A DNA stretch of 64,000 bases, from positions 372,001-436,000 of the forward strand of contig NZ_JALJRZ010000001.1 of the NCBI RefSeq assembly GCF_024519435.1, in the 5' to 3' direction. The notes below the pieces were generated by a model that was given only the letters and a program-made list of their open reading frames with translations, had not been told where the DNA came from and made no database searches. The position numbers were made by a program, and so were the translations under genes. Positions 8,111 to 28,823 of the stretch are shown here, in pieces (positions within the stretch are counted from its first letter, which is position 1; each line of letters opens with the position of its first letter). The stretch comes from Terrabacter sp. Ter38 (lineage in GTDB: Bacteria; Actinomycetota; Actinomycetes; Actinomycetales; Dermatophilaceae).

Positions 8111-8590
8111 TGTCACCCGTCCGTGCAGCAGACCCGGATGGCGCAAGAACCCGACCGGACCGCACGTCGGCATCTGGCAGCCGGTCGATGGTCACCATGA
8201 CGAGACCGGTGGTCGAGGTGCGTTGAAACCATACGGTCGTTCACGTTCGGTCCTCGGTCCATCGCCGCCCTGGGCAAGGGTCAGTCAGCGGTCCGTGGGG
8301 CAGGATGCCCACGAGCGAGCAGAAACCGACAGAGGCCGCTGGAACGATCCGCAAGCCAGCCACCGCGTTCCGGCCGGTCCTCAGGCCAGCGAACGGGCTG
8401 AAACGCGCGCCTGCCCACCCAGCATGCAAGAAGCATTGGATGTTCGCCGACGATCGACGATATGAGCAATTCGCACCGATTCAGCGCCGGTCTCCAAGAG
8501 ATCGGCTGTGCGACTTCGAGGCATTCCCTGTGCTGCAACGCTTTCGGGTCTAGATTGGCACCCTCGGCGCCTTACAACGAAGGACCCGCC
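8111..8590. other. Intergenic stretch without a recognisable gene
   Basis: About 480 bp between the IS remnant and the phosphoesterase carries no frame I can support. G+C is visibly lower than in the housekeeping regions. TAGATT at 8551-8556, 40 bp before the next start codon, could be a -10 box; no convincing -35 box is seen. Confidence 0.5.
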
Positions 8591-11524
8591 ATGCAGCCGC
8601 GAAGACTCGTCGTGTCCGGGCTCACGAGTGCGGCCCTTATGGCGGGCACCGTCATGGCCGCACCGGCAGCTCGAGCCTCGGTGACCACCGTGCCTCGTCC
8701 TGACCACGTCGTGGTGCTGATTCTGGAGAACCATTCGTCAGGCGAGGTCCTGGGGAATCCGGCCGCCCCGTACATCAACTCCCTGGCGGCCTCGGGGGCG
8801 AACATGACCTCCTCGTTCGCTCTCACCCACCCCAGCCAACCGAACTACGTCGCGCTGTTCTCCGGCTCGGTGAATGGAGTCACCGACGACTCCTGCCCGA
8901 ACACCCTGAGCGCGGACAACCTCGGTGCCCAGCTCACCAACTCCGGGCAGGGCTTTGCCGGCTATGCCGAGGACCTGCCCAGTGTGGGCTACACCGGATG
9001 CACGAGTGGGTCGTACGCACGCAAGCACAGCCCGTGGGTGAACTTCACCAACGTGCCGGCCTCGGCCAACCGACCGCTGACCCAGTTCCCCGCCGACTAC
9101 TCCACCCTGCCGGCGGTGTCCATCGTGATCCCGAATCTGCAGCACGACATGCACGACGGATCGATAGCCCAAGGAGACGCGTGGGTCCAGGCGCAGCTGG
9201 ACGGCTACGTGCAGTGGGCCAAGCAGCACAACAGCGTCTTCCTGCTGACCTTCGACGAGGACGACAACACCGCGAACAACCAGATCCCGACCATCTTCCA
9301 GGGGCAGAACGTCCAGCCCGGGCAGTACTCCGAACACATCGACCACTACAACATCCTTCGCACCCTTCAGGATGCCTACGGCCTTGCCCCGATCGGCAAC
9401 AGTGCAACGGCTTCGCCCATCCTCGACATCTGGAAGCCAGACCTGAACGCGCCCCAGGCAAGTTTCACCACAACGTGCGTAGGGCTGACCTGCTCCGCGG
9501 ACGGCTCGGGCTCCACTGCTGCGACGGGTTCGCTCACCGGCTGGCGATGGACCTGGGGGGACGGCAGCGTAACAACGGAACCCACGCGAGCCAGCCATAC
9601 CTACGCGGCATCGGGCGACTTCACGGTGACCCTGCAGGTCACTGACGACCAAGGTCGGACCGGACAGACGACACGATCGGTCTCCCCTCGTACGCCTGGT
9701 CCGGTGGTCTTCGCCTCTGACGCCTTCAACCGCACCGTGACCGCGGGGTTGGGATCCGCCGACGTGGGCGGCGCCTGGGCGCTGGTCGGAAGCGCCAGCA
9801 CCTTCTCCGTCACACCGGGAGCCGCGTCTCTCGTCCAGTCCAAGGCGGGCGCTGGGCTGACCGCTTACCTGCCCTCCGCCAAGAGCACCGACACCGACGT
9901 CCAGATGGCCGTGGCCACCAACCCGCTGCCCAACTCCAACGGTCTCTACCTCACCATGCTCGGCCGCCGGGTCGGCACGAACATGGAGTACGAGGGCAAG
10001 GCTCGGGTTCGGGGGGACGGCTCCGTGGTGATCAGCCTCAGCATGCTGACCGGCACCGCGACGGCCGTGACTCTGAAGAGTGAAGTGGTGGCGGCGGGAG
10101 TGTCGCTATCCGCGGGTATGCCGCTCAACACCCGACTGCAGGTCACCGGTACCTCTCCGACCACCCTCCGATGGAAGGTGTGGTCGGGCGCTTCAGAACC
10201 GGCCACCTGGCAACTCACCGCAACCGACAGCACTGCGGTCCTTCAGGCCGCCGGAGCCGTGGGCATCACGACCTACCTGTCCAGCAGCAGCACGATCGCG
10301 CCGGTCACCGCGAAGCTCAGCGCATTCAGTGCCCGAGGAACGGCCCCACCGGTGAACCAGCCGCCGACGGCGGCGTTCACCGCTACCGCGGCGAATCTGG
10401 TGGCGACGTTCGACGCGACGGCTTCGAGTGACCCCGACGGGACGGTCACCGGCTATGCCTGGGACTTCGGGGACACCGGCAGCGGCACCGGCAGCAGGCC
10501 GACTCACACGTACGGCAGCGCCGGCAGCTACCCGGTCAAGCTGACCGTGACCGACGACCAGGGCGCGACCAACTCGGTCACCAAGACGGTCACGGTGACG
10601 GCCCCACCGGTGAACCAGCCGCCGACGGCGGCGTTCACCGCTACCGCGGCGAATCTGGTGGCGACGTTCGACGCGACGGCTTCGAGTGACCCCGACGGGA
10701 CGGTCACCGGCTATGCCTGGGACTTCGGGGACACCGGCAGCGGCACCGGCAGCAGGCCGACTCACACGTACGGCAGCGCCGGCAGCTACCCGGTCAAGCT
10801 GACCGTGACCGACGACCAGGGCGCGACCAACTCGGTCACCAAGACGGTCACGGTGACGGCCCCACCGGAGGCGCCGATCGCCGCGGACGACTTTGGCAGG
10901 ACGGTTGCCATCGGCTGGGGTTCGGCTGACGTCGGCGGAGCGTGGACGACCTCGAGTGGGAGCAACTTCGCTGTCTCCAACGGAACAGGGTCGCTGACCA
11001 TGAAGACCGCCGGGTCCGGTCCCGCGATATATCTGAACTCGGCGTCGGCCAGCGACGCCGATCTGCAGTTCACCTTCGCGCCGGACAAGGCCGCCACCGG
11101 CGGTGGCTACTACCTCACGGCAGTCGGGCGCCGGGTCGCCAACATCGGCGAGTACCGGGCGAAGGTGCACGTGTTGGCCGGTGGCTCCGTCCGAGTGGCC
11201 CTCACCTTCTCGAGCTCGACCAACGTCGAGTCGACCATGGTGGCCGAGGCCGTCGTCCCGAATCTGACCGTGAGCCCCGGAGACGTTGTCCAGGTACGTT
11301 TCCAAGCGTCCGGTACGAGCAGCACGACCCTGCGCGCCAAGGTCTGGAAGGTGGGTAGCGCCGAACCGGGGACCTGGATCGTCTCGACCGTCGATGCACG
11401 AGCGGGGATGCAAACATCGGGTGGCGTGGGACTGTGGACCTATCTCTCCTCCACAGCAACGAACGCCCCGCTCGTCCTCCGCATCGACAATCTACGCCTC
11501 GTCCGGCCGTCCACCACTCCCTGA
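8591..11524 (+). CDS. Secreted phosphoesterase with PKD domains
   Basis: The 977-residue exported protein starts with a signal peptide ending near PAARA (about residue 29). Residues 35-285 are a phosphoesterase of the acid phosphatase/phospholipase C type: ENH at 46-48, HPSQPNY at 80-86 and TFDEDD at 220-225 match metal-binding positions of that superfamily. Then come a PKD domain (about 286-375), a jelly-roll-like domain, two identical PKD domains (about 585-756) and a second jelly-roll-like domain. ATG 8591 was chosen over upstream codons because GAAGGA precedes it and the signal peptide follows directly. It probably acts on extracellular phosphate esters; the substrate is unknown. It is cargo of the tRNA-bounded region. 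Confidence 0.85.
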   Translation: MQPRRLVVSGLTSAALMAGTVMAAPAARASVTTVPRPDHVVVLILENHSSGEVLGNPAAPYINSLAASGANMTSSFALTHPSQPNYVALFSGSVNGVTDDSCPNTLSADNLGAQLTNSGQGFAGYAEDLPSVGYTGCTSGSYARKHSPWVNFTNVPASANRPLTQFPADYSTLPAVSIVIPNLQHDMHDGSIAQGDAWVQAQLDGYVQWAKQHNSVFLLTFDEDDNTANNQIPTIFQGQNVQPGQYSEHIDHYNILRTLQDAYGLAPIGNSATASPILDIWKPDLNAPQASFTTTCVGLTCSADGSGSTAATGSLTGWRWTWGDGSVTTEPTRASHTYAASGDFTVTLQVTDDQGRTGQTTRSVSPRTPGPVVFASDAFNRTVTAGLGSADVGGAWALVGSASTFSVTPGAASLVQSKAGAGLTAYLPSAKSTDTDVQMAVATNPLPNSNGLYLTMLGRRVGTNMEYEGKARVRGDGSVVISLSMLTGTATAVTLKSEVVAAGVSLSAGMPLNTRLQVTGTSPTTLRWKVWSGASEPATWQLTATDSTAVLQAAGAVGITTYLSSSSTIAPVTAKLSAFSARGTAPPVNQPPTAAFTATAANLVATFDATASSDPDGTVTGYAWDFGDTGSGTGSRPTHTYGSAGSYPVKLTVTDDQGATNSVTKTVTVTAPPVNQPPTAAFTATAANLVATFDATASSDPDGTVTGYAWDFGDTGSGTGSRPTHTYGSAGSYPVKLTVTDDQGATNSVTKTVTVTAPPEAPIAADDFGRTVAIGWGSADVGGAWTTSSGSNFAVSNGTGSLTMKTAGSGPAIYLNSASASDADLQFTFAPDKAATGGGYYLTAVGRRVANIGEYRAKVHVLAGGSVRVALTFSSSTNVESTMVAEAVVPNLTVSPGDVVQVRFQASGTSSTTLRAKVWKVGSAEPGTWIVSTVDARAGMQTSGGVGLWTYLSSTATNAPLVLRIDNLRLVRPSTTP
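10342..10857 (+). repeat. Perfect tandem duplication, 2 x 258 bp
   Basis: The DNA at 10342-10599 repeats at 10600-10857 with no difference that I can find, and the first 11 bases recur at 10858. Each unit encodes one 86-residue PKD domain. Nucleotide identity means a recent duplication or active gene conversion, or an assembly artefact. Confidence 0.85.
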
Positions 11525-27146: not shown

Positions 27147-27986
27147 GTGACCCACCTCATCACCGCCACCGAGCTCGCCCACGAGATCGAGGACGTCGTC
27201 GTGCTCGACGTGCGCTGGGCCCTGACGACGGCGAACACGCCCGCGGGCCGGGCGGACTACGACACCGGCCACGTGCCCGGCGCCTACTTCGTCGACCTCG
27301 ACACCGAGCTCGCCGCTCCCCCCGGGGACGGCGGGCGCCACCCGCTCCCGGACCCCGGTGTCGTCGAGGCGCTGCTCCGCCGCGCCGGCATCACGGCGCA
27401 CACCCGCGTCGTCACCTACGACGGCAAGGAGTCGTATGCCTCCGCGCGCGCCTGGTGGGTGCTTCGCTGGGTGGGCATCCCCGACGTCCGCGTGCTCGAC
27501 GGGGGGTACGCCGCGTGGCTGGCGGCCGGACTTCCCGTCTCGACCCAGGAACCCGCCGACCGGCACGGCGACGTCGTGGTGCGGCCGGGGCACCTGCCGA
27601 CGCTCGACGCCACCGGTGCGGCCGCCGTGGCCCGCGACGGGCTGCTCCTCGACGCGCGCGCCCCGGAACGCTATGCCGGCGACACCGAGCCGATCGACCC
27701 CGTCGCCGGGCACGTGCCGGGAGCGGTCAACAGCCCCACGACCGCCTGGGTCACGGCCGACGGCACGTTCCGGCGCGACCTGGCCGAGCACTGGGGCCGG
27801 GTGCGTGCGGGTCACGACGGGGGCGACGGTCTCGTCGGTGTCTACTGCGGCTCGGGAGTGACCGCGGCCCACGAGATGCTCGCGCTCGCCGAGCTCGGCG
27901 TCGACACGGTGCTCTACCCCGGCTCCTGGAGCGAGTGGATCCGCGACCCTGCACGCCCGGTCGCCACCGGCCACTCCCCCGGCTGA
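27147..27986 (+). CDS. sseA: Sulfurtransferase with two rhodanese domains
   Basis: The 279-residue enzyme transfers sulfane sulfur, probably from 3-mercaptopyruvate or thiosulfate, to a thiol acceptor. The N-terminal rhodanese domain (about 5-135) is inactive, with Asp in place of Cys (TYDGKESYASARAW). The C-terminal domain (about 155-275) carries Cys234 in YCGSGVTAAHE, whose CGSGVT loop is the mercaptopyruvate type. GTG 27147 starts 25 bp from the divergent hydrolase. A tandem hairpin array follows its stop codon. Confidence 0.9.
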   Translation: MTHLITATELAHEIEDVVVLDVRWALTTANTPAGRADYDTGHVPGAYFVDLDTELAAPPGDGGRHPLPDPGVVEALLRRAGITAHTRVVTYDGKESYASARAWWVLRWVGIPDVRVLDGGYAAWLAAGLPVSTQEPADRHGDVVVRPGHLPTLDATGAAAVARDGLLLDARAPERYAGDTEPIDPVAGHVPGAVNSPTTAWVTADGTFRRDLAEHWGRVRAGHDGGDGLVGVYCGSGVTAAHEMLALAELGVDTVLYPGSWSEWIRDPARPVATGHSPG

Positions 27987-27997
27987 CCAGCTCGCGA

Positions 27998-28223
27998 CCT
28001 GCTCCGTTTTCGGGAGCAGGATCCGAGTCCCCGCCGGATGAGTCCGGGAGCTCGCCTATCGGATCCTGCTCCGTTTTCGGGAGCAGGATCCGAGTCCCCG
28101 CCGGATGGTCCGGGAGCTCGCCTATCGGAACCTGCTCCGTTTTCGGGAGCAGGATCCGAGTCCCCGCCGGATAGGTCCCGGAGCCTCCCTATCGGATCCT
28201 GCTCCGTTTTCGGGAGCAGGATC
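27998..28223. repeat. Tandem array of four hairpins, 66-67 bp period
   Basis: CCTGCTCC starts at 27998, 28065, 28131 and 28198, each followed by GTTTTC and the complementary GGGAGCAGG. In copies 2 and 4 the stem extends to 12 bp (GGATCCTGCTCC). Between hairpins, GAGTCCCCGCCGGAT and CCTATCGGA are also conserved. The array fills the gap between two convergent genes. The first hairpin could terminate the sulfurtransferase gene; the rest have no known role. Confidence 0.85.
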
Positions 28224-28259
28224 CGACGAGATGACAGGCTTGCCGTCCGCCCCCGTGGT

Positions 28260-28823
28260 TCACAGATGGCGATCGAGGCGGCGTTCGAGGGTGGTGAGTG
28301 CTCGGGCGGCCGCCACGCGCACGGACTCGTCCTGGTCGTCCACGGCCTCGTGCAGCGCCTCGGCGTCCTCGGCCTCCCCCACGGCGCCGAGCACCCGCGC
28401 GGCCGCGGCTCGAACCCTTGGCACGTCATCGGTCGTGACGAGGTCCGCGCAGGTCTCGGCTGCGGGGCCGACCTCCCAGCGGGCGGCCACCTTGGCGCAC
28501 ATCTCACGGACCCGCCATGCCGGATCATCCAGTCCTGCAACGACATCCGGGGTGCATCGGTCCGACCAGACGTAGAGCAAGGTGCGTGCCGCCCACACCC
28601 GGGACCAGTAGCGGGTGGCGTCGTCGAGGTGGTCGGGCGACCCCCAGCCGAACGCGATACGGCCGCCGACCCAGCCGATGTCGGGCAGATCGGGGTCGCC
28701 CCAGGCCGCACGTCCGGCGAGCAGGTCGGCGCACCATGACGTCAGCACTTCGTCGCCGAGCGCGTCAGCCGCCGCCCGCGCCCGGTCACCGGGCGTCGCG
28801 CGCAGCACCTCGGGCTCGACCAT
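28260..28823 (-). CDS. HEAT-repeat-like protein
   Basis: A 187-residue helical protein with at least two HEAT-like repeats in its C-terminal half (PAWRVREMCAKVAARW, VPRVRAAAARVLGAVG, ESVRVAAARALTTLE). Such repeats form a protein-binding solenoid. No enzyme motif is seen and the partner is unknown. It ends next to the hairpin array. Confidence 0.75.
   Translation of the reverse strand: MVEPEVLRATPGDRARAAADALGDEVLTSWCADLLAGRAAWGDPDLPDIGWVGGRIAFGWGSPDHLDDATRYWSRVWAARTLLYVWSDRCTPDVVAGLDDPAWRVREMCAKVAARWEVGPAAETCADLVTTDDVPRVRAAAARVLGAVGEAEDAEALHEAVDDQDESVRVAAARALTTLERRLDRHL

Follow-up and report, generated by a model that had tools for sequence, protein, structure and literature searches.

Why should the narrow gap between two converging genes carry four nearly identical hairpins? 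The question arises from a 64,000-nucleotide stretch of Terrabacter sp. Ter38 DNA, here called the window, in which the hairpins follow one another in tandem. The array is a real feature that is unusual in form and probably ordinary in function. Its best explanation, to which we assign a probability of about 0.6, is a bidirectional terminator lacking a U-tract that would serve both convergent genes and consist of four tandem copies of a hairpin dispersed through Terrabacter.

Architecture of the array

The array consists of four 35-bp hairpin units between positions 27992 and 28226, with start-to-start spacings of 67, 66, and 67 bp, and it is flanked by a rhodanese gene (+) and a convergent HEAT-repeat gene (−). 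This agrees with the first-pass annotation, which had described four tandem hairpins with a 66–67-bp period between convergent genes. The rhodanese-like sulfurtransferase gene is an ORF at 27147–27986 on the + strand (Pfam PF00581, E 1.6e-25), and the array starts 5 nt past its stop codon. The HEAT-repeat protein gene is an ORF at 28260–28823 on the − strand (Pfam PF13646, E 3.7e-13) that converges on the array, the end of which lies 33 nt from its stop codon. Read on the + strand, hairpin 1 (27992–28026) has the form TCGCGACCTGCTCC-GTTTTCG-GGAGCAGGATCCGA with three mismatched pairs in the outer stem, and is followed by linker 1 (28027–28058, 32 bp, GTC...CTA), hairpin 2 (28059–28093, −28.6 kcal/mol), linker 2 (28094–28124, 31 bp), hairpin 3 (28125–28159, one mismatched pair, −23.9 kcal/mol), linker 3 (28160–28191, 32 bp), and hairpin 4 (28192–28226). 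The 14-bp arms pair perfectly in copies 2 and 4 only, with three mismatches in copy 1 and one in copy 3. The GTTTTCG loop occurs in all four copies and the linkers are conserved, both in line with the earlier description of conserved linkers and a GTTTTC-type loop.

With up to three mismatches allowed, the pattern CCTGCTCC-N7-GGAGCAGG has seven matches in the window, where 0.96 would be expected and none of 100 shuffles gave more than four; its four exact matches are the array copies. The predicted folding energy is −143 kcal/mol for the array region (z = −7.3) and −22 to −29 kcal/mol for single units. Each copy would form a GC-rich RNA hairpin whichever way it was transcribed.

Elsewhere in the window, a 258-bp unit is repeated 2.1 times with 100% identity at 10340–10868, within a long ORF (8462–11524); it may stem from the recent duplication of a domain or from the assembly.

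Distribution of the GGAGCA hairpin family

The stem search in the genome and its relatives, as the first-pass annotation had advised, located the hairpin at one further locus here and in other Terrabacter. This genome holds six hairpins of the GGAGCA family at two loci, the second (L002) being a two-copy array 3′ of pntB. Across Terrabacter, about 14 loci occur in six of nine genomes, including Root181 with its arrays of two hairpins, Root85, and T. aerolatus, and the comparison of copy number between species gave one to four copies per locus. A hairpin covariance model, run against 188 genomes, matches in five of the nine Terrabacter genomes and gives only weak hits in five other genomes of the bacterial family; the sixth Terrabacter genome (G001) carries one degenerate copy 3′ of the FAD gene. 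A strict-pattern scan of about 85,000 species found arrays in Terrabacter only; Humibacillus and Enemella yielded single hairpins of what looks to be the same type. The distribution is patchy among close Terrabacter species. A phage or plasmid origin was set aside: phage and plasmid collections contain no match to the array, and the lone hit to a viral contig comes without the array. A literature search naming Terrabacter returned no relevant paper.

Two more dispersed hairpin families occur in these genomes. One features the arms GCAACACACCGAGCA/TGCTCGGTGTGTTGC about 55 bp apart (Terrabacter loci including L095, L097, and L109–L138) and counts 3–28 half-sites in each genome, most of them where genes end. 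The other is the palindrome CCGAACGCnGCGTTCGG, often paired at 51 bp (loci including L141, L144, L178, and L194–L199), which occurs 0–28 times per genome and swaps with GGAGCA arrays at gene ends.

By crude gene calls, the 14 GGAGCA sites that were located include none inside a gene and none in a divergent gap, and the three families together, about 49 sites, have one site in each of these positions. Since 9 of the 37 gaps in the window, about a quarter, are divergent, this bias toward 3′ ends is unlikely to be due to chance. The crude gene caller overlooked HEAT and xre genes, and neighbor classes therefore need correction by eye. After correction, L001 counts as a convergent site because of the HEAT gene, its nearer neighbor, and at L002 and L029 pntB and the xre gene behind it are codirectional. 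Again by crude gene calls, long single hairpins devoid of T-tracts stand in several of the window's convergent gaps and at the 3′ ends of other genes, and the divergent gaps contain no hairpin above their own shuffles. These single hairpins reach −29 to −49 kcal/mol, compared with the −22 to −29 kcal/mol of an array unit.

Orthologous junctions

Three orthologous gene ends were compared across Terrabacter: junction A behind the rhodanese gene, junction B behind pntB, and junction C behind an FAD oxidoreductase gene. Junction A features four GGAGCA hairpins in the species of the window and one in G008 (Terrabacter sp. Root85), which makes the earlier remark that one hairpin suffices for termination a fair one. 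An unrelated hairpin with CAACACACCGAG arms stands there in G003, G004, G005, and G007, and G001 and G006 have no obvious hairpin. At junction B, GGAGCA hairpins are present in G000 (two), G007 (two), and G005 (three), with CGAACGCnGCGTTCG palindromes in G008, G006, G004, and G001. Junction C carries GGAGCA hairpins in G005 (four), G007 (two), and G001 (one), CGAACGC palindromes in G000, G008, G006, and G003, and no clear hairpin in G004. GGAGCA arrays alternate with CGAACGCnGCGTTCG hairpins at junctions B and C. Most of the compared junctions fold better than shuffles, with a lowest z of −9.4. In most species, then, a junction keeps a hairpin but not a particular hairpin sequence, and it is chiefly for this reason that the terminator reading is favored.

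Two side observations concern these junctions. Downstream of the match to the FAD oxidoreductase in G002 (junction C, L181) lies what seems to be another tandem hairpin array, GTCGAGTGCTCAGTTCCC ... GTGAGCACTCGAC. Behind pntB (L139, L140, and L145), a gene for an XRE-type regulator is found only in the three genomes with a GGAGCA array there; in the remaining genomes, a converging gene appears to take its place.

Comparison with known element classes

The array has the hairpin of a canonical intrinsic terminator, but the T run is absent on both strands and a consensus scan returned zero terminators. Terminators lacking a U-tract are recognized by a stable hairpin soon after the stop codon, and such hairpins stand here at 5 and 33 nt from the two stops (−22 to −29 kcal/mol each; z −7.3 for the whole array). 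In Streptomyces, Term-seq has mapped hairpin 3′ ends without U-tracts as well as bidirectional ends (PMC8269248, PMC12207403). The Terrabacter array resembles these "I-shaped" terminators and bidirectional ends in having a GC-rich hairpin near the stop, no U-tract, and a position common to convergent genes; in contrast to them, it is built of four near-identical tandem copies with the sequence of a dispersed family. Clusters of hairpins have also been proposed as terminators (PMC8355165). They share with the array the placement of several hairpins 3′ of one gene end but are short, contiguous, and made of unlike hairpins less than 15 nt apart, whereas the Terrabacter units are near-identical and have a 67-bp period.

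Like REP/BIME elements, the Terrabacter palindromes are short, extragenic, dispersed, and at times clustered. REPs bear GTAG or CGTC tags, and those with GTAG go with RAYTs (PMC3733652). The Y1 (RAYT/IS200-type) transposase family (PF01797) was found in none of the nine Terrabacter genomes, against 5 of 14 control genomes, and the flanks of single copies share no GTAG/CGTC tag. A RAYT-associated REP/BIME was thus rejected: in contrast to such elements, this genome holds only six hairpins at two loci, in direct arrangement, with neither tag nor Y1 transposase. Of the REP/BIME-like element first proposed, the dispersed extragenic palindrome with a stem that recurs in the genome and its relatives stands, and the RAYT-type identity does not. 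As the REP tag and RAYT tests fail, and as both U-tract-less ends and hairpin clusters are known, a terminator-type hairpin family is the class that we assign. GGAGCA would accordingly be a low-copy dispersed hairpin family, the members of which most likely act as terminators. In Neisseria and Haemophilus, inverted DNA-uptake sequences serve as terminator hairpins. The Terrabacter family resembles them as a repeat family reused for terminator hairpins and differs in being low-copy and showing no sign of an uptake role.

A related alternative is a non-autonomous mobile palindrome (MITE- or REP-like) that gathers in 3′ gaps because insertion there is harmless, with any terminator effect incidental. 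The recurrence at separate loci of one unit of two hairpins and a linker, the linkers being more alike than shuffles, the patchy occurrence between close species, and the presence of further dispersed hairpin families in these genomes would all suit such an element, but it is unlikely in view of the low copy number here (six hairpins, two loci), the missing Y1/RAYT transposase (0/9 genomes) and GTAG/CGTC tag, the lack of a match in phage or plasmid collections, and the count of zero sites in divergent gaps.

A CRISPR array, already dismissed in the first-pass annotation on account of conserved rather than unique linkers, was rejected as well, since the linkers are 81–97% identical within arrays and related across loci. 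A conserved structured RNA, which that annotation had entertained, is not supported: base-pair counts equal those of shuffles, the outer stem is often mispaired, and in the Rfam search no family matched at gathering score and only chance-level microRNA matches appeared.

Sequence conservation and evolution

Linker identity amounts to 0.88 within an array (81–97%), 0.77 at the same junction across species, and 0.60–0.65 between junctions, with most pairs from different junctions related beyond shuffles. From this pattern, it is probable that a unit of two hairpins and a linker passed from junction to junction by copying and was later homogenized within each array. No copying enzyme was found, the Y1 transposase family being absent from all nine Terrabacter genomes.

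The inner core TGCTCC...GGAGCA (columns 8–14/22–28) has an identity of 0.98 between loci; outside the core, the arms reach 0.57, the loop 0.64, and the linker about 0.6. This value is partly built in by the search pattern, yet the arrays located by BLAST keep the core in all units. At least two mismatches in the 14-bp stem are found in 17 of 26 hairpins. Inversion of an arm was rejected as the source of this mispairing, as the orientation of loop and linker is unchanged. Were stem pairing alone important, compensating changes would be expected, and none are seen: the pair counts of 23 distinct hairpins from the family are no higher than those of column shuffles. The palindromes described earlier as compensating are therefore not borne out as such, and of the proposed RNA checks, folding gave a strong result (z −7.3) and covariation none. 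A near-invariant core beside diverging arms, loop, and linker is suggestive of a constraint on the specific sequence, be it from a binding protein, a preference of the polymerase or NusG, or a mobility signal.

Such a constraint would be met if CTGCTCC-N7-GGAGCAG were a dimer site and the four copies cooperated in protein binding, e.g., to form a roadblock where the genes converge. The core identity and the regular 67-bp spacing fit this rather improbable reading, but no candidate binder is at hand, G008 has a single copy at the same junction, unrelated palindromes replace the sites, and part of the core conservation stems from the search pattern. Still less probable is a post-transcriptional 3′ element, in which the hairpins would set mRNA stability by stopping exonucleases or by attracting an RNase, with no effect on termination. 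Stable hairpins straight after stop codons, a 7-nt loop in which the T positions are mostly conserved, and linkers of consistent polarity are compatible with it; the location between convergent genes, however, suits use in both directions, and covariation is absent. A functionless, neutral minisatellite (VNTR), for which the tandem units, the one to four copies per locus between species, and the likeness of units within an array (linkers 0.88 vs. 0.60–0.65 between loci) could be cited, is hardly credible, as the hairpin occurs at other loci and in other species, contrary to the unique and unconserved array that the first-pass annotation expected of a satellite, and does so at gene ends only and with an invariant core.

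Proposed function

Under the terminator reading, RNA polymerase would stop at the array from either side. Copy 1, only 5 nt past the stop codon, may be masked by the terminating ribosome, and the array units are individually weaker than the single hairpins elsewhere, so that extra copies could plausibly restore strong termination. Repetition is plausible for these two reasons, the one published backing being an effect of gene-to-terminator distance on termination efficiency in E. coli (PMC4824070). Arrays would expand and shrink via recombination between the 67-bp units, and units may now and then be copied between gene ends, like the other, unrelated hairpin families.

The position of the array, its conservation, the variation in copy number, and the replacement by unrelated hairpins are direct observations. 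Counting against a terminator are the lack of a U-tract, the frequent mispairing of the outer stem, the absence of covariation, the overly conserved core, and some junctions with no clear hairpin. The conservation of the core exceeds what a terminator hairpin needs, and a sequence-specific factor or a mobility signal could therefore also be involved. A bolder form of the terminator reading, which we consider a long shot, holds that Terrabacter has several families of "terminator cassettes" that can stand in for one another and spread by copying from one gene 3′ end to the next without a RAYT, and that the GGAGCA core TGCTCC-N7-GGAGCA is read sequence-specifically by a termination or anti-read-through factor.

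If the terminator reading is true, terminators in Terrabacter would spread as repeat families, amplify in tandem, and be swapped for unrelated hairpins between close species. This would help to explain how convergent genes are kept separate in GC-rich actinobacteria without U-tracts. The junctions, moreover, offer a natural copy-number series of one, two, three, and four hairpins for asking whether hairpin number sets read-through.
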